Positions 1 through 10,544 of a stretch of DNA of 64,000 nucleotides are shown here, in pieces. Numbering within the stretch: position 1 is the stretch's first letter; the number at the start of each line of letters is the position of its first letter. The stretch comes from an uncultured SAR86 cluster bacterium. Lineage in GTDB: Bacteria; Pseudomonadota; Gammaproteobacteria; Magnimaribacterales; AG-339-G14. The position numbers and the translations under genes were made by a program. The DNA lies in contig CABZIF010000003.1 of the NCBI GenBank assembly GCA_902525735.1, positions 1 through 64,000 of the forward strand. Direction: 5' to 3'. The notes beneath the pieces are model-generated. The model was not told where the DNA came from and searched no databases. It saw only the letters and a list, made by a program, of their open reading frames with translations.

Positions 1-663
1 GGAAAACCAAGAACTCATTCTAAACAACCCACTTTTAAAAAAATCTTAGAAGGCAAAACTACTCCTCATTTTTTTGCTAGATGGGATCAAAAACCGGATT
101 TTACATATCTTGGCATAGGTTCAGTAGTTGATTTCCAAGACAGCGTTCTTACCAGAGAGGGAAGTGCGATAGAGTTAACTTTAGCGGTTAAAGATGCGAA
201 AGATATTTTGAATTATGCTGCATCGTCAGAAGACTCATCCGTAAAAGGAACCGATGAAATCATATTGCCCCCTTCTTCTTTCGTTCTTGAAAAACATTTA
301 GAGGATTACATTTGCAAAAATTGGAAAAATACTATCTTTGGAAGAGAGTTCGATATCTATGAAAATGGGAGGCAATATCAAACAAATACAGGACCTTTAG
401 ATATCCTTGCAAAAAGGAAAGACGATAAAGAATTTTTGGTTTTAGAACTCAAGAGAGATCTAGCGAGTGATGTAGTAGTTGGACAAACTTTAAGTTACAT
501 GGGTTACATAAAGCAAAATCTGGCACTAAACGATGAAAAGGTAAGGGGATGCATAATTGCTACTAATGCAGATCAGCGCTTAAGAAACGCTCTGTCATCA
601 GTGGATAACATTGATTTTTACGAATATAAAATTAACTTTTCAATGAACAGAATTGAAACCTAA
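1..663 (+). CDS. NucS/DUF91-like PD-(D/E)XK endonuclease-domain protein, 5' end outside window
   Basis: Frame 1 is open from base 1 (GKPRTHSKQPTFKKILEGKTTPHFFARWDQKPDFTYLGIGSVV...) through the listed 208..663 ORF, so the TTG at 208 is not the true start. The C-terminal half has GPLDILAKRKDDKEFLVLELKRDLASDVVVGQTLSYMGYIK, a NucS-like ELK nuclease core. Confidence 0.75.
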   Translation, partial: GKPRTHSKQPTFKKILEGKTTPHFFARWDQKPDFTYLGIGSVVDFQDSVLTREGSAIELTLAVKDAKDILNYAASSEDSSVKGTDEIILPPSSFVLEKHLEDYICKNWKNTIFGREFDIYENGRQYQTNTGPLDILAKRKDDKEFLVLELKRDLASDVVVGQTLSYMGYIKQNLALNDEKVRGCIIATNADQRLRNALSSVDNIDFYEYKINFSMNRIET

Positions 664-740
664 TGAAGAAAAAACAGTCACATACAAATCAAGTCAGTCA
701 CGGTGGAGTAGATTTGGTTGTACCGGTTAAAACAAGTTGA
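663..740 (+). CDS. 25-aa micropeptide MKKKQSHTNQVSHGGVDLVVPVKTS (HGGV copy 1)
   Basis: ATG overlaps the upstream stop (taATGa) and its TGA abuts the next ATG at 741. Its core recurs at 1181-1268 and 1348-1380. Confidence 0.5.
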   Translation: MKKKQSHTNQVSHGGVDLVVPVKTS

Positions 741-1184
741 ATGAAGACCACTAAACAGCAATTAGGTGATTTTGGTGAAAATCTAATACAAAAAAAATTT
801 AATTGCCCTAAATGCAAAAGAGCAAAAACTTTAAAAAAACTTCCACCAAATTTTAAATGTGCAGACATTATTTGTGATTTCTGTGGTTATTTAGCACAAG
901 TCAAAACACATAATGTAAAAGATATATCCCAATTTCCTAAAAGAGTTCTTGGAGCAGCGTGGGGACCACAAAAAGAAAGGATGGATGCAGGAATATATTT
1001 TCCTCTATATGTTGTCCTAAAATGTGAGAAAAAATATTCAGTTTTTTATCTTTCGTCAGACCTACAAACAGAGGAAATGTTTATTAAAAGAAAACCATTA
1101 TCTAGTTCTGCAAAAAGAGCAGGATGGCAAGGGTATCTTTTTGATGGAGAGATAATGAAAGACCTAGTAACTAGGTTAATATGA
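741..1184 (+). CDS. DpnI-type Zn-binding PD-(D/E)XK nuclease domain protein (no winged-helix domain)
   Basis: CPKC...CDFC zinc ribbon, CADIICDFCGYLAQVK with the same D(x10)[E/Q]xK spacing as DpnI, and IKRKPLSSSAKRAGWQG resembling DpnI IQRKPLAPTARRAGWIG (recalled). Confidence 0.75.
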   Translation: MKTTKQQLGDFGENLIQKKFNCPKCKRAKTLKKLPPNFKCADIICDFCGYLAQVKTHNVKDISQFPKRVLGAAWGPQKERMDAGIYFPLYVVLKCEKKYSVFYLSSDLQTEEMFIKRKPLSSSAKRAGWQGYLFDGEIMKDLVTRLI

Positions 1185-1268
1185 CTAAAAAAACAGCTAC
1201 AACCAATTCAACTCGGTCACGGTGGAGTAGTTCCAATTGAAAAATTAATTTTCTGTTATAATAATTAA
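1181..1268 (+). pseudogene. HGGV micropeptide copy 2, frame broken at an A7 run; one A fewer gives MTKKQLQPIQLGHGGVVPIEKLIFCYNN
   Basis: ATGA overlap with the upstream stop. Removing one A from 1187-1193 gives an ORF aligning with copy 1 and ending TAA directly before ATG at 1269. As written, the frame is MTKKTATTNSTRSRWSSSN* (1181-1240). Confidence 0.45.
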
Positions 1269-1328
1269 ATGTGTGATTGCTGCGATTGCTGCGAATGTTC
1301 CTGTTGCTCAAAAGCAAAAATTAAATAA
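1269..1328 (+). CDS. 19-aa cysteine-rich micropeptide MCDCCDCCECSCCSKAKIK
   Basis: ATG TGT GAT TGC TGC GAT TGC TGC GAA TGT TCC TGT TGC TCA AAA GCA AAA ATT AAA TAA; 8 Cys in 19 residues; start directly abuts the TAA of the corrected HGGV copy 2. Confidence 0.45.
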   Translation: MCDCCDCCECSCCSKAKIK

Positions 1329-1347
1329 AGGTAAAGACCACCTATAA

Positions 1348-1380
1348 AAACAACTATCCAATGGTGGAGTTGATCCCTAG
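1348..1380 (+). pseudogene. Degenerate HGGV micropeptide copy 3 (KQLSNGGVDP*)
   Basis: AAA CAA CTA TCC AAT GGT GGA GTT GAT CCC TAG; matches the KKQ...GGVD core of copies 1 and 2 but has no in-frame ATG. Confidence 0.35.
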
Positions 1381-1401
1381 GTGTAGTTTGTTTTAAAAAA
1401 G

Positions 1402-2199
1402 TTGAAAAGAATAATACTTAGCAGAAAAGGATTTGATGCTAAAGCAGGCGGAAGTGCGTCACCTATATTTAGCGACGGAAGGATTTTTTCTATACCGATT
1501 CCTCAAGATCACCCTTCACCAAAAAAGTATAAAGATTTAAACCTTGACGGAACATCAGGCACACAGTTATTGAAAGAGGCATCTGCCAAGGTAAAACCTA
1601 CAGATTATTGTCATAATGACCCACTACTAAATGAAGATATTGGTATTTTCGGTCAAGCAGGTTCTTCGCAAACAGAATTAAAAAATAGTAGTGTAGGTCC
1701 GGGAGACTTATTTCTATTCTTTGGATGGTTTAAAAATTTTTCAATTAAGGGAAGAGATCTACATCATCTTTTTGGATGGTTACAAATAAAAGAAATAATC
1801 GAAGGGTCTAAAGCAATAACCACATATCTTAAAGAAAAGAATATTGCTCATCCTCACGGATACGGAGACACTTCTAAATTCTTAAATAATACTATCTATG
1901 TTGGCAAAAAAACTTTAGAGATAAATGAAAAAAAAGTTTTTAACAGAGGATACGGTTTATTTAAAAAGACTCACGATGATTTAATTTTGACTGAAGCAAA
2001 TAAAACTCGATCCAGATGGAAACTGCCTTCAAAATATTTCTTAAATACAGAAGGGTTGTTCTTAAACAGAATGAAGTGGGAGAACGAAAAAGAATTTACA
2101 ATCTTTTACAAAGGGTTTGGGCAAGAATTCATCCTTGACATTGAGAAAAATCCAAGTGTAATGACGTGGGCAGTAAACCTAATAAAAAAACACGGATAA
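1402..2199 (+). CDS. Nmad3-like (nucleotide modification associated domain 3) protein
   Basis: TTG start; MKRIILSRKGFDAKAGGSASPIFSDGRIFSIPIPQDHPSPKKYKDL and later FFGWF...LHHLFGWLQI pattern as remembered for Nmad3 proteins. Confidence 0.65.
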   Translation: MKRIILSRKGFDAKAGGSASPIFSDGRIFSIPIPQDHPSPKKYKDLNLDGTSGTQLLKEASAKVKPTDYCHNDPLLNEDIGIFGQAGSSQTELKNSSVGPGDLFLFFGWFKNFSIKGRDLHHLFGWLQIKEIIEGSKAITTYLKEKNIAHPHGYGDTSKFLNNTIYVGKKTLEINEKKVFNRGYGLFKKTHDDLILTEANKTRSRWKLPSKYFLNTEGLFLNRMKWENEKEFTIFYKGFGQEFILDIEKNPSVMTWAVNLIKKHG

Positions 2200-2218
2200 T
2201 TTATATGGAAGATAAAAT

Positions 2219-2905
2219 ATGGTTTTAGTAGCGGGCGTGCTCTTAGTTTTGGCATTGATATTCGGACCTTCTTTGTGGGTGAAGCTGATTATGAAAAGGT
2301 ATTCATCGCAACAGCCTGAAATGCCTGGCACTGGTGGAGAGCTCGCAAAGCACTTGATTGAGCGATTTTCTTTAAAAGATGTGAAGGTCGAAGTAACTGA
2401 ACTCGGAGATCACTACGATCCAATTGAAAAAAAAGTTAGGCTCTTACGAGAGCACTACGATTCTAAATCACTAACCGCAATTGCTATTGCAGCGCATGAG
2501 GTTGGACACGCAATTCAGGATCAGCAAGGTGATAAACGTTTGGCTACAAGAACAAAGATGGTCCCCATTGTTGATAAGGTGGCTCGTTTAAGTGTTGCCA
2601 TGATTTCTCTATCACCAGTGATCGGTATCGTTACGCGGCATCCCATGCCATTTTCTTTATTGCTTTTTTTAGGACTATCCGGCTTTGTTGCTCGCATGAT
2701 GATTCATGCTGTAACTTTACCAATTGAATTTGACGCAAGCTTTTCTAAAGCACTCCCTATATTAAGAGAAGGGAATTACGTATCGCAGTCAAACGAAAAA
2801 GCCGTAAGCAGTATTCTAAGGGCAGCAGCCCTCACTTATGTCTCGGCTGCGCTAGCCGACATTTTAAACCTTAGTCGTTGGATCGTAATACTATTAAGGC
2901 GATGA
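2219..2905 (+). CDS. YugP-type zinc metallopeptidase, membrane
   Basis: AIAAHEVGHAIQDQQG HExxH motif with flanking TM helices. Confidence 0.85.
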   Translation: MVLVAGVLLVLALIFGPSLWVKLIMKRYSSQQPEMPGTGGELAKHLIERFSLKDVKVEVTELGDHYDPIEKKVRLLREHYDSKSLTAIAIAAHEVGHAIQDQQGDKRLATRTKMVPIVDKVARLSVAMISLSPVIGIVTRHPMPFSLLLFLGLSGFVARMMIHAVTLPIEFDASFSKALPILREGNYVSQSNEKAVSSILRAAALTYVSAALADILNLSRWIVILLRR

Positions 2906-3075
2906 AATAATTTTAATGGAAGATAAATATATAAAATTTTTATCAAAGTTCCATAAAAATATTCATAAGAATATCAAATCGTAATTCGCATTATCTCAAA
3001 CACATCAGATTCAGTTGAATAGAACTGTTTCAAGTAGTTAAATAACAATGCGATATTATTTAATAAGGAGATTTT

Positions 3076-4293
3076 ATGAAAACTTTGAATAAAAAAATAT
3101 TTTTTTTTATAGCAATAATATTTATGCTTCCACAACATTTGGCTGGTAATAATCTTCAAGAAAATGTCCTAGCATATCAAGAGGCTTTAGTAGCAGCAGG
3201 AATAACAGGATCCAGCGTTGCTGGCGTATACAGTGCCGAAAATACTTTAGCCTTCTCTATTGTTAATTCTAGTATAGAAGGTGATAAATCTATTTCCAAT
3301 GAAACTATATTTCCAATATGGTCCATGTCAAAACCAATAACTATAGTTGCAATGATGATCTTACATGACAGGAATCTCTTTGACGTAACAGATCCTGTAA
3401 AAAACTACATCCCATATTTTAAAGATCTGCAATGTGAAGCAGAAGAAGAAAACATAGGAACTTATACTTGTGCAAATGATCTTTTAATAGAACACTTACT
3501 ATCTCATAGAAGTGGATATGGATATGCTTCTTATGATGCTAATGTCCCGGACCATCTAGATCCTTTTCAGGATTTGGATGAATTTGTTAGACATGTAGCA
3601 AGCCGACCAGTTAAATTCGAGCCTGGATCAGAATATCTATACGGAATAAATCAAGCAATTTTAGGAAGACTTGTAGAAGTTATATCCGGCCAAGAGTTTT
3701 TTGAATTTCTTAAAGAAAATTTATTTAATCCTTTGAACATGAAAAATACAAAGTTTTATTTGACCGATGAAGATAGAAAAAATTTCCACCCTTTATACAG
3801 AAAGGCCCAAGAAGAGGCAGGCATTAATCTTTTAAATCCTGACAGCGGAGTAAGCGAAATTACTTATAATTTTGACGAGCTTAAATATAATTTTGGAACT
3901 AAGAAGCAGCTAGGTGGAGAGGGCCTAGTGAGTACATTTGACGATTACAGAAAATTTTGTCAAATGCTTCTTTTGGGAGGTAAATACAATAACAAAACTA
4001 TAATATCGAGCGAATCCTTTGAGCTGATGACCAAAGTTGTAACGCCTCATTTTATAGCTGGAGGATACGATGATGGATTTGGATATTCATATTCTATGTT
4101 TTCTCTTCAAGAACCACTTCTCGACGGTACGGGATCACCAAAAGGTATTTTTGGATGGTCTGGTTATCACAATACGCACTTCTGGATTGATCAAACAAAC
4201 CAAATATATGGTTTATTTATGACAAGGACAACACCATTTCAAATTGAAATCCAAAAAAATTTTAGATCAGCAGTATACAAAAACATAAATTAA
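3076..4293 (+). CDS. Serine hydrolase, class C beta-lactamase-related
   Basis: Signal peptide; SxxK motif SMSKP; LLSHRSGYGY; YLYGINQAILGRLVEVISG. Confidence 0.85.
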   Translation: MKTLNKKIFFFIAIIFMLPQHLAGNNLQENVLAYQEALVAAGITGSSVAGVYSAENTLAFSIVNSSIEGDKSISNETIFPIWSMSKPITIVAMMILHDRNLFDVTDPVKNYIPYFKDLQCEAEEENIGTYTCANDLLIEHLLSHRSGYGYASYDANVPDHLDPFQDLDEFVRHVASRPVKFEPGSEYLYGINQAILGRLVEVISGQEFFEFLKENLFNPLNMKNTKFYLTDEDRKNFHPLYRKAQEEAGINLLNPDSGVSEITYNFDELKYNFGTKKQLGGEGLVSTFDDYRKFCQMLLLGGKYNNKTIISSESFELMTKVVTPHFIAGGYDDGFGYSYSMFSLQEPLLDGTGSPKGIFGWSGYHNTHFWIDQTNQIYGLFMTRTTPFQIEIQKNFRSAVYKNIN

Positions 4294-4392
4294 AAAAAAC
4301 TTAAAAAAATAATTATTTTTTAATATCTTAAAAAAAACTTGTCCTATAAACTTAAACTTTAAACAGAATTGTTAAAATAAGTTAAACATGGA

Positions 4393-5730
4393 CTATTCAT
4401 TTAAATCAGTTTTATAAGTCTCTGTAAGAAAATAGACAGAGAGCAAAGAAGCAGCTGAAGCTAAAGCAATATAAACAGAAACCCAAAAAATATCGTAACT
4501 TGTCCATAGCAAAGTTGCTATGGTTGGTGCGAAAGAACCACCTAAAATAGCTCCAATTTGATAGCCAAGAGACGCACCAGAATATCTAACTTCGGTAGAA
4601 AAAAGTTCAGCAAAGAAAGCTGCTTGAGGTCCATACATCATTCCTAAAAAAGCCAATCCTCCAGTAACAGCCAAAATAACCAGATAAAAATTACCCGTAT
4701 CAATTAGAGGAAAAAGAAAAAAAGACCATAAAGCCGTTAGGCAGGCACCAGCCATAAAAATTCCTTTTCTACCATTTTTGTCCGAATAATGAGAGAAGTA
4801 AAATTGAGCAGGCACCATAATGGCTGAGCCAATCAACACAGCGGCAAGCAAATCATTTCGAGAGAGGTCTGTAGTTGCAACACCATAAGCCAGTATGAAA
4901 GCCACTAAGATATAGAAAGTTACCTGGATTGAAAGAAATGCTCCTGCAGCAAGAGAAATTCTTCGAGGGTACCTTCTTAAAGCCTCAAGTATAGGCGAAG
5001 ACTTTATTTCTTGTTTGACGTTGTCTTGAGAACTTTTAGCTGCTTCGAGCTCTTTAAAGGCTTTGGTATCTTCAAGTCTTAATTGGATATACATACTAAT
5101 TATTACTAAAACAAAGCTTATTAAAAAAGGAATTCTCCAACCCCAGGAGAGAAAACTTTCCTCTGAAGTAAGCAAACTCACTGAGATAAAGGCGATGTTA
5201 GCCAGAATTACGCCAACTGGTGCACCCGCTTGAGCATAAGCTCCGTAGTAACCTCTTCTATGGCTTGGTGCGCTTTCAGTGATCAATAACATTGCACCTC
5301 CCCATTGACCGCCAATGGCAATTCCTTGACAGAATCTTAAAAAGGTAAGGAGAAGAGGTGCTGCTATACCTATAGTTTCATAAGTTGGTAATAGACCAAT
5401 TAAAGTTGATGCTATTCCCATTAACACCAACGCAAATACCAATGTTTTCTTTCTGCCAACAAGATCTCCAAAGTGGCCAAAAATAATCCCACCAATGGGT
5501 CGCGCGATGAAACCAGCTGCAAACGTCATGAAAGATAATATGAGTGCGGTTGTCGGATCTACTTCTCCAAAGAAAAGTTTTGGAAACACTAGCCCAGCTG
5601 CTGCGCCATATAAAAAGAAATCGTACCACTCGATACTAGTGCCTGATAAAGAGGTAAAGGCAACTTTTCTAATATTTGATTCTGTTGAAATTTCTTTCAT
5701 GACATCATAATAAACGTAAATCTCTTTCAT
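4393..5730 (-). CDS. MFS transporter, MHS (metabolite:H+ symporter) family
   Basis: GTSIEWYDFFLYGAAAGLVFPKLFF, FGHFGDLVGRKKTL and RFCQGIAIGGQWGGAMLL signatures. An internal ATG at 5700 is an alternative start. Confidence 0.85.
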   Translation of the reverse strand: MKEIYVYYDVMKEISTESNIRKVAFTSLSGTSIEWYDFFLYGAAAGLVFPKLFFGEVDPTTALILSFMTFAAGFIARPIGGIIFGHFGDLVGRKKTLVFALVLMGIASTLIGLLPTYETIGIAAPLLLTFLRFCQGIAIGGQWGGAMLLITESAPSHRRGYYGAYAQAGAPVGVILANIAFISVSLLTSEESFLSWGWRIPFLISFVLVIISMYIQLRLEDTKAFKELEAAKSSQDNVKQEIKSSPILEALRRYPRRISLAAGAFLSIQVTFYILVAFILAYGVATTDLSRNDLLAAVLIGSAIMVPAQFYFSHYSDKNGRKGIFMAGACLTALWSFFLFPLIDTGNFYLVILAVTGGLAFLGMMYGPQAAFFAELFSTEVRYSGASLGYQIGAILGGSFAPTIATLLWTSYDIFWVSVYIALASAASLLSVYFLTETYKTDLNE

Positions 5731-5825
5731 TACACTACACTCAAAAGAGTTGATATTTTTAAAAAAAAATTGCTAGAAAGAAAAAAATAAGTTGAACTGA
5801 TTTGAAAGAATTTTAAAATTAAATA

Positions 5826-6215
5826 ATGAAATCAATTATTACAATTTTATTTTTAATGTTATCTCTCAATGCTTTTGCGGAGAAAGTTTATTTTATAAAT
5901 ATCAAAGAAGGAGACGTTTTGAAATCACCGTTTCTTGTTCAATTTGGATTGTCAGGCAAAGGCGTTGCTCCAGCGGGAGTTGATATAGAAAATACTGGTC
6001 ACCATCACCTTTTAATAAATGTTGATGAGATAGATTATTCTTTGCCAATCCCATCTTCTAAGCAACATCTTCATTTTGGCTTAGGCCAAACCGAAACAAA
6101 TCTTGATCTTGCAGAAGGGGAATATCAGTTGCAGTTAATTTTGGGAAATAAATACCATATACCTCATCAGCCACCTTTAGAATCAAAAAAAATTAAAGTT
6201 ACAGTGATCCCATAA
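5826..6215 (+). CDS. DUF4399-type secreted protein
   Basis: Signal peptide; VYFINIKEGDVLKSPFLVQFGLSGKGVAPAGVDIENTGHHHLLI. Confidence 0.75.
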   Translation: MKSIITILFLMLSLNAFAEKVYFINIKEGDVLKSPFLVQFGLSGKGVAPAGVDIENTGHHHLLINVDEIDYSLPIPSSKQHLHFGLGQTETNLDLAEGEYQLQLILGNKYHIPHQPPLESKKIKVTVIP

Positions 6216-6268
6216 GTGAAAATAATTTGATAACCTAAATAATAAAAACAAAAAAAGGAGTTATAAAT

Positions 6269-6724
6269 ATGTTGGATTTAATTAGTTTTGATGAATCGAA
6301 GATTGATTGGAAACCGCTACCAGGCCCTGATGGTGAACCAGCTGATCATATCTCGTTGTCTATATTAAACGTAGATGACAGAGCTAAAATAGTCGATGTT
6401 TTATTTAAGTTTTCAGCAAATGAAAAAATTCTGATGCACAGACATACATCACACTATAGTACTTTCACTGTTAAAGGAGAGTTGAGAACTTATCTTCCCA
6501 ATGGAGAATTAAAGGATGTTAGACCTGCGGGAGTATTTAAAGCCGGTGAACCAGGGGAAGCGCATACAGAAGGCGGTGGAGACGAAGATGTAGTGGTTTA
6601 TTTTAGTTTAAGACCATATACGGCCACAGATCCTATATATGAAATTCTTGACGAAAACTTAGAAGTTCTTCAAGCGATGAATTTTGAAGATTTGAAGGGT
6701 CTGAATGAGGAACATTCTTTTTAA
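6269..6724 (+). CDS. Cupin-domain protein
   Basis: HRHTSHYSTFTVKGELRTY and GEAHTEGGGDEDVVVYF cupin motifs; RBS aaggag upstream. Confidence 0.7.
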   Translation: MLDLISFDESKIDWKPLPGPDGEPADHISLSILNVDDRAKIVDVLFKFSANEKILMHRHTSHYSTFTVKGELRTYLPNGELKDVRPAGVFKAGEPGEAHTEGGGDEDVVVYFSLRPYTATDPIYEILDENLEVLQAMNFEDLKGLNEEHSF

Positions 6725-6797
6725 GTCACATTGACAAAAGTTGTATCTTAAGGACTATTAATTTAAAGTGTTCGATCCTTAAGGAGAGTATAAACAT

Positions 6798-7196
6798 ATG
6801 AAAAATTCCCAGTTAATTTCAGACAGGCTGGCTATGACATTATCTTTAGCTTGTATAGTGCATTGCCTATTTGTGCCGGCTTTCTTAATTTCTTCTGTTG
6901 CTTTGTTTTCCATACAGTTTTCCGATGAAATTCTTCATTATTCTCTGCTTTTTTTAGCCGCACCAATAAGTCTATATGCTCTTTACCAGGGTAAAAAAAA
7001 TCACAAAAGTAATTCCTTTTTCCCGATTGGAGTTTTTGGGTTGGCGGTTCTTCTTTTTGCCTTGTTTAATGAAGGAGAGTATTTAGGTTTTCCATTAGAA
7101 AACATATTCACAATAATTGGGTCAGCTTTCTTAATATTTGCCCACTATAAAAATTATCGAACTTGTCAAAATTCTGACTGCGATTGTCACGAATAA
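6798..7196 (+). CDS. MerC-domain membrane protein
   Basis: SDRLAMTLSLACIVHCLFVPAFLI and C-terminal CQNSDCDCHE. Confidence 0.75.
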   Translation: MKNSQLISDRLAMTLSLACIVHCLFVPAFLISSVALFSIQFSDEILHYSLLFLAAPISLYALYQGKKNHKSNSFFPIGVFGLAVLLFALFNEGEYLGFPLENIFTIIGSAFLIFAHYKNYRTCQNSDCDCHE

Positions 7197-7245
7197 TTTT
7201 TATTTTTAACTTGGAAAGCTTGAAAAAAAAATTTAATATTTTCCT

Positions 7246-8445
7246 ATGTTAAAAGAAGAACAAAACAGACTACTCAAAGGTTTGATCACTCATTTAGACG
7301 CTAATACAAATGTTGATGCAGGTGGGATAGTTAAAACACCAGCTGATACTTACACTTGTGAAGAAAGATTTGATTTAGAGTGGAAAACCTTTTTTAAAGA
7401 TTATCCTCAAATTGTTGGCATGTCTGGAGATTTGGCTGAACCAAATAGTTTCGTTACGATCGAAGATTTTGGCTCATCAATAATCGCTGCACGAGATCCC
7501 CAAGGAAAGTTTCGGGCATATGCGAATGTCTGTTCTCATCGAGGTGCTGAAATCGAACAAGATAAAAAAGGTGTAAAGTCTAAATTCTCGTGTCCTTTCC
7601 ATGGATGGACTTTTAATAACGAAGGAGATTTGGTCGGTTATCCTAAAAGGGACCAATTTGGAAAAATAGATAAAGACTGTTATGGACTAACTGAATTACC
7701 GAGTCTAGAAAAGTATGGTTTCTTATGGGTGCATCCAAATTCAAAAGGAGAAATTAATTTAGATGAATTATTAGGCGATAAGTTGAATGAAGAATTTGCT
7801 GCGTGGGATTTTGATAAGTTAGTGCTTTCTCATGAAGATGAATATCGAACTGACATGAATTGGAAGTTAGCTATAGATACTTTTGGAGAAACTTACCACT
7901 TTTCTGTTTTGCATAAAGACTCTCTTTTTCAAGCTTTTCATGGCAACTGTCAATTGTTTGATAGTTTTAAAAGGAATGGAAGATTAATTTTGTGCAAGAG
8001 AGATATCGATGCAATGAGAGAAATGCCTGAAGAAGATTGGAAAATCTGTACAGGAACGTTGCCAGTTTATTATTTATTTCCAAATATAATCTTTATGCCA
8101 ACTCCAGAAGGGGCTTTTTTGGTTAAAGAGTATCCTTTAGAAGATTCACCTCATAAAAGCGTTTCAAAGATTTCGTTCTATTTTTATCCAGAAGCACTTG
8201 CAGCCGCCAAAAAAATGGGAGTATCTCCAGAAACTGGTCAAAATCCTCTTGAAGAACTCTACACTGCATTTGGCAATGTAATTCGAGACGAAGATTATGT
8301 AGCTGCTGCCTCATCTCATAAGGGTTTAAATTCTGGCAACCTTGAATTTCTTACTTTTGGTAGAAATGAACCAGCTCTTCATCATTATCACAATACCTAC
8401 AGAGAAGCATTAGGCTTGCAAAAATTACCTCTTATTAAATCTTAA
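7246..8445 (+). CDS. Rieske aromatic ring-hydroxylating oxygenase, alpha subunit
   Basis: Rieske CSHRGAEIEQ...CPFHGWTF; non-heme iron region DTFGETYHFSVLHKD. Confidence 0.9.
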   Translation: MLKEEQNRLLKGLITHLDANTNVDAGGIVKTPADTYTCEERFDLEWKTFFKDYPQIVGMSGDLAEPNSFVTIEDFGSSIIAARDPQGKFRAYANVCSHRGAEIEQDKKGVKSKFSCPFHGWTFNNEGDLVGYPKRDQFGKIDKDCYGLTELPSLEKYGFLWVHPNSKGEINLDELLGDKLNEEFAAWDFDKLVLSHEDEYRTDMNWKLAIDTFGETYHFSVLHKDSLFQAFHGNCQLFDSFKRNGRLILCKRDIDAMREMPEEDWKICTGTLPVYYLFPNIIFMPTPEGAFLVKEYPLEDSPHKSVSKISFYFYPEALAAAKKMGVSPETGQNPLEELYTAFGNVIRDEDYVAAASSHKGLNSGNLEFLTFGRNEPALHHYHNTYREALGLQKLPLIKS

Positions 8446-8449
8446 TTAA

Positions 8450-9184
8450 ATGATAGATCTTTATTATGCTCCAACACCCAATGGTTGGAAAATTTCTATT
8501 ATGCTTGAAGAATGCGAGATAGATTACAACGTAATTTATGTCAATTTAGGCAAAGGAGACCAATTCAAACCGGAATTTTTAAAAATCAGCCCAAATAACA
8601 GAATGCCGGCGATCGTTGATCATAAAAATGTAATCGATGGGCAGCCAATGAGCGTGTTTGAATCTGGCGCAATATTAATGTATTTAGCGGAAAAGGTAGA
8701 AAAATTTTTTCCTCAGAAATCTCCTGACAGAGAAAGAGTTTTAGAATGGTTATTTTGGCAAGTTGGAGGATTAGGTCCAATGGCTGGTCAGGTAAGTCAT
8801 TTTGTTAATTATGCTCCGAATTTCCCTGGTGATCACTCATATTCCGAAACTAGGTATAAAAACGAATACGATCGCTTGTTAGGTGTAATGGATAAAGTTT
8901 TGAATGAAAGAGAATTTTTAGCTGGAGATTATTCAATTGCAGATATGGCGTCTTTTCCGTGGGTAACCGCCTATAAAAGGTACGAAGTTAATTTAGACTC
9001 TTTTACAAATGTAAGAAGATGGTTTGATGCTATTAAAGTCAGACCTGCGGTAAGAAGAGGAATGGATGTTGGAAAAGAAGTAAGAAATTTCGGTGAAGGA
9101 ATATCCAAAGAAAGTCTTAAAACTATGTTTAAACAAGATGCCAAAAGTATTTCTGAAATGGCAAAGGCAAAAGAAAAAAATTAA
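8450..9184 (+). CDS. Glutathione S-transferase family protein (YfcG/YghU-like)
   Basis: YYAPTPNGWKISIMLEECEIDYNVIYVNLGKGDQFKPEFLKISPNNRMPAIVD; ESGAILMYLAEK. Confidence 0.87.
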   Translation: MIDLYYAPTPNGWKISIMLEECEIDYNVIYVNLGKGDQFKPEFLKISPNNRMPAIVDHKNVIDGQPMSVFESGAILMYLAEKVEKFFPQKSPDRERVLEWLFWQVGGLGPMAGQVSHFVNYAPNFPGDHSYSETRYKNEYDRLLGVMDKVLNEREFLAGDYSIADMASFPWVTAYKRYEVNLDSFTNVRRWFDAIKVRPAVRRGMDVGKEVRNFGEGISKESLKTMFKQDAKSISEMAKAKEKN

Positions 9185-9188
9185 ATTT

Positions 9189-9788
9189 CTAGAGTAAGTT
9201 TTCGATTAATTGAAGCCTATCGTTACCAAAATACATATCTTTATCGTTGATAAAGAATGTTGGTGAACCGAAGCCGCCTCTTTCCATAAGTTCTTGGGTA
9301 TTTTCCACAAGTCTGTTTTTTGTATCAGGCAGATTAATAAACTCAATATAATTATTTGAATCAACACCTAAGGCATCAACAATTTTTGCTAAACAATCTT
9401 CGCTTGATATATCAATCCCGTCTGTCCAATAAGCTTTAAATATAGATTTAAGATAAGACTCTATTTCAATCTTTTCATCTAAAAAATAAAAAGCCCCCCT
9501 CATAGCTCTAACGCTATTGATCGGAAAAATTTTTGGCCAATTTATTTCAATACCTCTTAATTTAGTCCAATCATTCATATCTTTTTGAGAGTAATCTAAT
9601 TTCTCTTTTACTGGATTTTTTCTACTTTCGTAAACGCTCGGATTGATCGAATTAAAAATACCGCCCACTAAAATAGGTTTCCATATAATGTCAAAATCTT
9701 TAGTTTTTTTTAAATTTAAAATTCCTTTGAAGGAAAGATAAGTCCAAGGACTGCTGCAATCAAAAAAATATTCAATTTTTTTTGTCAT
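9189..9788 (-). CDS. 2-hydroxychromene-2-carboxylate isomerase / DsbA-family oxidoreductase
   Basis: IEYFFDCSSPWTYLSF; WKPILVGGIFN; ERGGFGSPTFFIND. Confidence 0.85.
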   Translation of the reverse strand: MTKKIEYFFDCSSPWTYLSFKGILNLKKTKDFDIIWKPILVGGIFNSINPSVYESRKNPVKEKLDYSQKDMNDWTKLRGIEINWPKIFPINSVRAMRGAFYFLDEKIEIESYLKSIFKAYWTDGIDISSEDCLAKIVDALGVDSNNYIEFINLPDTKNRLVENTQELMERGGFGSPTFFINDKDMYFGNDRLQLIENLL

Positions 9789-9797
9789 CTGTTTGAT

Positions 9798-10544
9798 TTA
9801 CTCCAGAATAATCTTAACGCCACCTAAAGAAATTTCTTCGTTTTGAAAAATTTTCATTGATTTTGCATTTTTTATAATTTGATCTTTATTCAGTGCCTTA
9901 ATTTTAAATGCATTGATGCCTAATCCTCTTCCATCAATGCTTTCTACAAAGTTTATAGTTGATTCTTCTAATTGAATTTTTAACTCATTGGCGGCTCTTT
10001 TTATTCCAAGAGCTTTTTCCCATTGTGCGCATAATTGTTCTGGATCATCGGATTGCATGACAACACCTGAAAGTACATCCACAAGATTTTTGTTTATGTC
10101 TTTTTCCCAATTTGTACCGGCCCAAAGCCAAGCATTTTTAGGATTCATATGATCTATTGATAAAATGGCACCACCAACCTGTTTCGGGTGAAGATGGATT
10201 GTTCGGGCATTTATTTCCTCTTCGTTTCTATTGCCATGCCAAACAATCTCAATTCCAGATGACTCAACTCTTTTTTGTTCACTTTCAAAGTCATCGACAG
10301 CCACAATGACCATGTAGCCACCATCTCCATTTCTTTTGTCTAAAAATCTCTCAGCAGTAGTATTTTCTTGGACCGGCATGACTATTTCAAAGAAGGTGTC
10401 ACCGAGTGGAATCAACACATTTTCTAGACCAAAATTAATTAACCCCGCATCATGATAAGTCTCTTTAAGATCAAGAAGGGTACAAATTTCCCTTGCCAAC
10501 CTGTCTCTTTCTCGAGAAACAAAAACTAACTGTCTTAATCTCAT
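9798..10544 (-). CDS. VOC/glyoxalase-superfamily protein
   Basis: Tandem VOC-like halves: MRLRQLVFVSRERDRLAREICTLL..., GGAILSIDHMNP. Confidence 0.7.
   Translation of the reverse strand: MRLRQLVFVSRERDRLAREICTLLDLKETYHDAGLINFGLENVLIPLGDTFFEIVMPVQENTTAERFLDKRNGDGGYMVIVAVDDFESEQKRVESSGIEIVWHGNRNEEEINARTIHLHPKQVGGAILSIDHMNPKNAWLWAGTNWEKDINKNLVDVLSGVVMQSDDPEQLCAQWEKALGIKRAANELKIQLEESTINFVESIDGRGLGINAFKIKALNKDQIIKNAKSMKIFQNEEISLGGVKIILE

Follow-up and report, generated by a model that had tools for sequence, protein, structure and literature searches.

Metallothioneins, of the bacterial SmtA/MymT type as well as of the eukaryotic class, are several tens of residues long, and at least about 20-30% of these residues are cysteines arranged in CxC and CC motifs. 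Bufferins and methanobactin-type MNIO RiPPs are also cysteine-rich peptides, which have been proposed to bind copper, and DoxX genes occur in bufferin operons. In mycobacteria, leaderless polycysteine ORFs and cysteine-sensing leaders have been reported (PMC4633059), with a further precedent in Canestrari 2020, as cited in PMC9094748; these accounts treat the ORFs, which lie upstream of cysA2 and of other genes that are cysteine-related or hypothetical, as cis regulators. Here, we describe a cysteine-rich microgene of the SAR86 lineage that shares features with each of these systems.

The window analysed here is a stretch of 64,000 nucleotides, which forms the start of one contig in a SAR86 genome of 1.18 Mb and 16 contigs (Table 1). 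A first-pass annotation of this DNA had pointed to a 19-codon ORF with eight cysteines, and the translation listed in Table 1 bears this out. The ORF had also been judged to lie far beyond random expectation, and we came to the same view: with up to two mismatches allowed, a DNA pattern for seven of the cysteines had a single match in the window, and 100 dinucleotide shuffles of the window gave no match.

Table 1. Position of the microgene, its promoter elements and the surrounding features in the window
Feature	Position	Strand	Remarks
NucS_C endonuclease domain	1-663		
43-nt intergenic HGGV repeat	669-711		at gene 3' end; TCACGGTGGAGTAG core
DpnI/Dam-replacing family	741-1184		
43-nt intergenic HGGV repeat	1188-1230		at gene 3' end
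Extended -10 element, TGTTATAAT	1254-1262	+	TATAAT at 1257-1262; ends 6 nt before ATG
Spacer AATTAA (6 nt), -10 box to ATG	1263-1268	+	too short for a Shine-Dalgarno leader; contains the TAA (1266-1268) closing the HGGV copy-2 frame
Cys-rich microgene	1269-1328	+	ATG at 1269, stop TAA at 1326-1328; 19 aa, 8 Cys, MCDCCDCCECSCCSKAKIK
HGGV repeat	~1360-1376		at gene 3' end
Nmad3 domain protein, downstream gene	1402-2199	+	nucleotide-modification domain; Pfam PF18754, E=1.1e-54; adjacency not conserved elsewhere
Gene cluster	5826-9184		small secreted-type protein, cupin-like, MerC, Rieske-type oxygenase-like and GST-like genes; names by inspection except MerC
MerC-family membrane protein, sole MerC of the genome	6798-7196	+	PF03203, E=2.7e-26 at 6822-7160; ~5.5 kb downstream of microgene

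The annotation had further proposed a search for conserved cysteine-rich micro-ORFs, and had named orthologous loci in which this one is lost or interrupted as counter-evidence. The ORF is intact in related loci of 76-80% blastn identity (G018, G022, G004 and G020), and a whole family emerged within the SAR86 order. Of the 203 genomes of the order, 31 carry the ORF in the form captured by a degenerate pattern with Asp or Glu at the x positions; with the relaxed form C-x-CC-x-CC-x-C-x-C, the number rises to 72, spread over three of four families and 10 of 22 genera. This distribution is patchy, and as most of the 203 genomes are incomplete drafts, absence from a given genome is uncertain. A reversed control pattern gave no match in the same 203 genomes. 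The 72 copies follow the formula MC-x-CC-x-CC-x-C-x-CC-x-K and all end after 12-19 residues, mostly with a terminal Lys. Two different copies, MCDCCNCCKCSCCSK and MCDCCKCCECSCCSK, coexist in one SAR86 genome (G187). Beyond the order, the strict form, with Asp or Glu at x, was found in only 30 contigs across 84,980 species; 28 of these are titled SAR86 and two only Pseudomonadota or Gammaproteobacteria. The relaxed pattern matched twice in 369 genomes of the class, both times in SAR86, and once in 399 genomes of the phylum, namely in the source genome of the window. The family was thus not found outside the SAR86 order in the other prokaryote genomes searched, and it is apparently undescribed.

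Since seven of the cysteines are imposed by the search pattern, the evidence of selection rests on codon 13 and the x positions, which were left free. Codon 13 encodes Cys in 71 of the 72 copies (65 TGC and 6 TGT); the remaining copy is a natural truncation, MCDCCDCCECSC, with TGA at this codon. The x positions hold only Asp, Glu, Ser, Lys, Asn, Thr, Gln or Ala, and no large hydrophobic residue occurs there in any copy. Moreover, both TGT and TGC are used at every Cys codon, and the spacing of the cysteines is constant across the 72 loci. From these comparisons, the SAR86 microgene is a genuine gene that has long been kept in the lineage.

The region upstream of the ORF is conserved as well and holds a promoter that had escaped the first pass. 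At positions -12 to -7 relative to the ATG, the 72 copies show T (67), A (69), T (63), A (70), a variable base (A36/C18/T13/G5) and T (70). At least five of the six bases of TATAAT are matched at exactly this position in 67 of the 72 family members, compared with 4 of 67 other genes of the window. When an independent search required only TATANT followed by 6 nt and M-C-x-CC, it gave 64 sites, which lie in 63 genomes; all are family members except one in G085. One copy (L077) has a displaced box, with a Shine-Dalgarno-like sequence in its place. Because the -10 element ends at -7, sigma-70 geometry predicts a transcription start at or beside the A of the ATG, and thus a leaderless mRNA. The mean score for a palindromic operator upstream of the microgene was equal to that of shuffles. 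Some copies of genus g8 (L143, L144 and L146) carry a local palindrome around -35, e.g. CAAACATGAAATGTTTG, a possible operator that is not family-wide.

The genes on either side vary between genomes: across the loci, those downstream fall into about 31 families and those upstream into 36; thus, the conserved unit consists of the -10 box and the ORF only. The commonest neighbour is a gene for a MerC-family membrane protein, which lies within ~5.5 kb in 38 of the 72 loci and is directly adjacent in 12. MerC (PF03203) is present in 165 of the 203 SAR86 genomes, mostly as a single copy. Several SAR86 genomes, among them G107, G111 and G139, encode the peptide without a MerC match, and one family (f3) has MerC and lacks the peptide. 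Genes for SDR, HXXEE, Zn_peptidase_2 and DoxX proteins are also frequent near the microgene; as nearly all of these island genes are co-oriented, the shared strand of MerC is no evidence of a partnership. The proximity of MerC is suggestive of such a partnership, although it may instead reflect a shared variable island. In two of the related genomes (G018 and G020), the microgene sits directly before MerC inside a cluster equivalent to that at 5826-9184.

On the other side, the ORF begins right after a stop codon that closes the frame of the second HGGV repeat, as had been noted in the first pass. The juxtaposition itself is real, but the bases just before the other 71 microgenes contain no HGGV sequence and the link is therefore incidental. 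A functional tie to the extension upstream fared no better, the flanks of the microgene being unconserved. Accordingly, we set the HGGV link aside: the repeats are separate intergenic elements, and a blastn search of 40 family genomes with the intergenic DNA returned the HGGV repeat and the micro-ORF separately, as two unrelated matches. An HGGV peptide from copy 2 is doubtful, since its frame has no ATG unless a frameshift is assumed. Related copies of the repeat occur in other family genomes and are paired at a spacing of ~220-1370 nt in several loci (L007, L010, L011 and L014), an arrangement that recalls the recombination sites of gene-cassette arrays. The run of nuclease and modification genes at 1-2199 looks like a cluster of defence or restriction cassettes.

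What, then, might the product do? Eight thiolates in 12 residues amount to metallothionein-like chemistry, which makes a soft-metal or thiol buffer the best reading; we consider it probable, with some reservation, that the product is a minimal metallothionein-like peptide binding soft metals or thiols. RNA polymerase would initiate on the A of the ATG or right next to it, and the 70S ribosome would read the leaderless mRNA into a soluble peptide of 14-19 residues, M-C-x-CC-x-CC-x-C-x-CC-x-K. Its eight thiolates, which have only polar or small residues as neighbours (Asp, Glu, Ser, Lys, Asn or Thr for the most part), would most likely enclose a small cluster of metal ions, soft or borderline, with Cu+, Zn2+, Cd2+ or Hg2+ as candidates, so that the peptide would serve as a metallothionein of minimal size or as a thiol buffer. 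It would plausibly pass metal to the nearby-encoded MerC-type membrane protein or protect the cell jointly with it. Part of the earlier functional proposal is thereby retained: of the roles it had listed, a metal-binding or redox peptide is the class best supported by the conserved Cys spacing, the hydrophilic x positions, the frequent MerC neighbour and a phage analogue beside IscU/IscA.

This analogue is one of a larger set. The relaxed pattern matched 53 viral contigs, and 44 of them have ORFs of 13-17 residues once overlaps and low-complexity sequence are removed (e.g. MCKCCKCCNCTCC, MCSCCKCCNCNCC, MCKCCKCCTCTCPECN and MCKCCDCCDCGCDC); the discarded matches lack a Shine-Dalgarno motif and comprise L151/159/160/167/168/177/184 (an 85-aa frame), L163, L200 (poly-C) and L203-L223. 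When the cysteines of the pattern were spaced differently as a control, only the poly-C contig matched. A Shine-Dalgarno-like motif precedes 43 of the 44 phage ORFs, many of which are packed tightly between genes, often of structural type, and their Cys codons vary synonymously. The neighbour gene of one large phage group points to Kyanoviridae-type marine phages (Pelagibacter phage HTVC008M, 45%; Methylophilales phage Melnitz, 54%), and the marine phage carriers are mostly T4-like; in a second group (L161/L193), the gene tested had no named relative. In one contig (L157:3577-4400), a Shine-Dalgarno-led MCKCCKCCNCTCCE ORF lies directly upstream of genes for IscU (NifU_N, E=1.3e-37) and an A-type Fe-S carrier (E=1.3e-13). 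A tblastn search with the joined phage peptide gave no match in named phages, the Melnitz-3 record contains no M-C-x-CC, and on HTVC008M, C48C1 and AG-345-L05 the matches to a two-mismatch pattern were swamped by noise. The phage micro-ORFs (L150-L202) resemble those of SAR86 in their M-C-x-CC-x-CC-x-C opening, in size and, for many, in the C-x-CC ending. However, they differ in their Shine-Dalgarno start and their frequent placement in gene clusters, and some end in TCPECN or GCDC; at such length, common ancestry is not demonstrable. Convergence of phage and SAR86 on a single thiolate spacing would itself point to a function at the level of the peptide.

The chief rival is a cysteine-responsive leader, in which ribosomes stalling at the Cys codons under cysteine shortage would alter expression of the following gene. 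It owes this rank mainly to genus g8, where a glyoxalase II (HAGH_C) gene consistently follows the microgene at 63-68 nt and the genes upstream change; in g6 the microgene precedes another gene by 12-13 nt, and the predicted leaderless architecture with its run of Cys codons fits as well. The next gene shares the strand of the microgene in 65 of 71 loci, to be read against 82% of neighbouring gene pairs in the same loci. However, the 31 downstream families, which in the mycobacterial case would be expected to centre on cysteine or sulfur metabolism, show no cysteine-metabolism theme; in six loci the gene downstream runs the other way, and four of the 31 families occur in that orientation only. 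The downstream gene is retained more often than the upstream gene (103 versus 64 pairs), but barely so once g8 is removed (53 versus 49), and control gene families scatter both ways. Terminator-like hairpins behind the ORF are not in excess (32 of 72, against 33 in shuffles), and an Rfam search of positions 1-10000 of the window gave no match. Codon sensing needs neither rigid Cys spacing nor polar x residues, and the phage analogues are Shine-Dalgarno-led and often lie within gene clusters. The rigid spacing, the polar x residues, the independence from the downstream gene and the phage usage all argue for a peptide product, and we regard a leader as unlikely.

Two other rivals accept a functional peptide. 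A Fe-S or redox factor, which would carry or scavenge iron-sulfur clusters or persulfide instead of soft metals, is recommended by the phage analogue immediately upstream of IscU and the A-type carrier and by the glutathione-thioester hydrolase gene downstream in g8; as Fe-S genes were seen on that one phage contig and are absent beside the SAR86 microgenes examined, we give it a low probability. A RiPP precursor, such as a copper-binding bufferin or a methanobactin-like product, had also been entertained in the first pass and would suit a short Cys-rich peptide with DoxX genes among its neighbours. We consider it very improbable, since PF05114 (MNIO/DUF692) was found in none of the 203 SAR86 genomes while control genomes were positive; moreover, 15 residues are too short for a distinct leader and core, and the loci have no conserved neighbour enzyme. 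As for a chance ORF or an artefact of low-complexity DNA, which two exact tandem copies of the 9-bp repeat gattgctgc within the window ORF might suggest, order-wide conservation, in which Cys codons change synonymously and the promoter stays fixed, rules it out for practical purposes, as does the absence of the seven-Cys pattern from the shuffles.

Going beyond the metallothionein-like reading of the SAR86 peptide, one may speculate, with rather little confidence, that SAR86 and marine T4-like phages share a class of ultra-minimal, genetically encoded thiolate peptides (13-19 residues, C-x-CC-x-CC-x-C-x-C(C)) that buffer soft metals or feed Fe-S/thiol chemistry. The phage copy would manage such chemistry during infection; in the bacteria, a bare promoter-plus-ORF unit of ~80 nt would travel through variable islands.

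If translated, the microgene would be among the smallest conserved bacterial protein genes and its product a metallothionein-like peptide cut to 14-19 residues; it would also allow leaderless translation in Gammaproteobacteria to be studied in a clean setting. It is small enough to be missed by ordinary gene callers. Its host lineage, still uncultured, ranks among the most abundant in the surface ocean, and marine phages have an analogous form. The metal chemistry is directly testable through chemical synthesis, for example of the peptides MCDCCDCCECSCCSK and MCDCCSCCECTCCAK.

Compared with the mycobacterial leaderless polycysteine ORFs (PMC4633059; Canestrari 2020, cited in PMC9094748), as far as these accounts describe them, the SAR86 microgene has in common the short ORF, the clustered Cys codons and the leaderless start, the latter predicted from the -10 box 6 nt before the ATG. 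It differs in its rigid peptide spacing, in its varied downstream genes and in the opposite orientation of these genes in six loci. With bufferins and methanobactin-type MNIO RiPPs, the likeness is the richness in cysteine; the SAR86 genomes lack the MNIO enzyme, and bufferins are far longer. No sequence match to a described metallothionein family was found: the peptide gave no Pfam match and only a chance-level match in the PDB, its shortness limiting both searches. With 8 cysteines in 19 residues, it nevertheless lies well within the metallothionein range, and it shares with these proteins the CxC, CC and CxCC spacing, the polar intervening residues and the expected lack of a hydrophobic core, whereas it is only 14-19 residues long, is encoded by a microgene predicted to be leaderless and is a putative metal binder.
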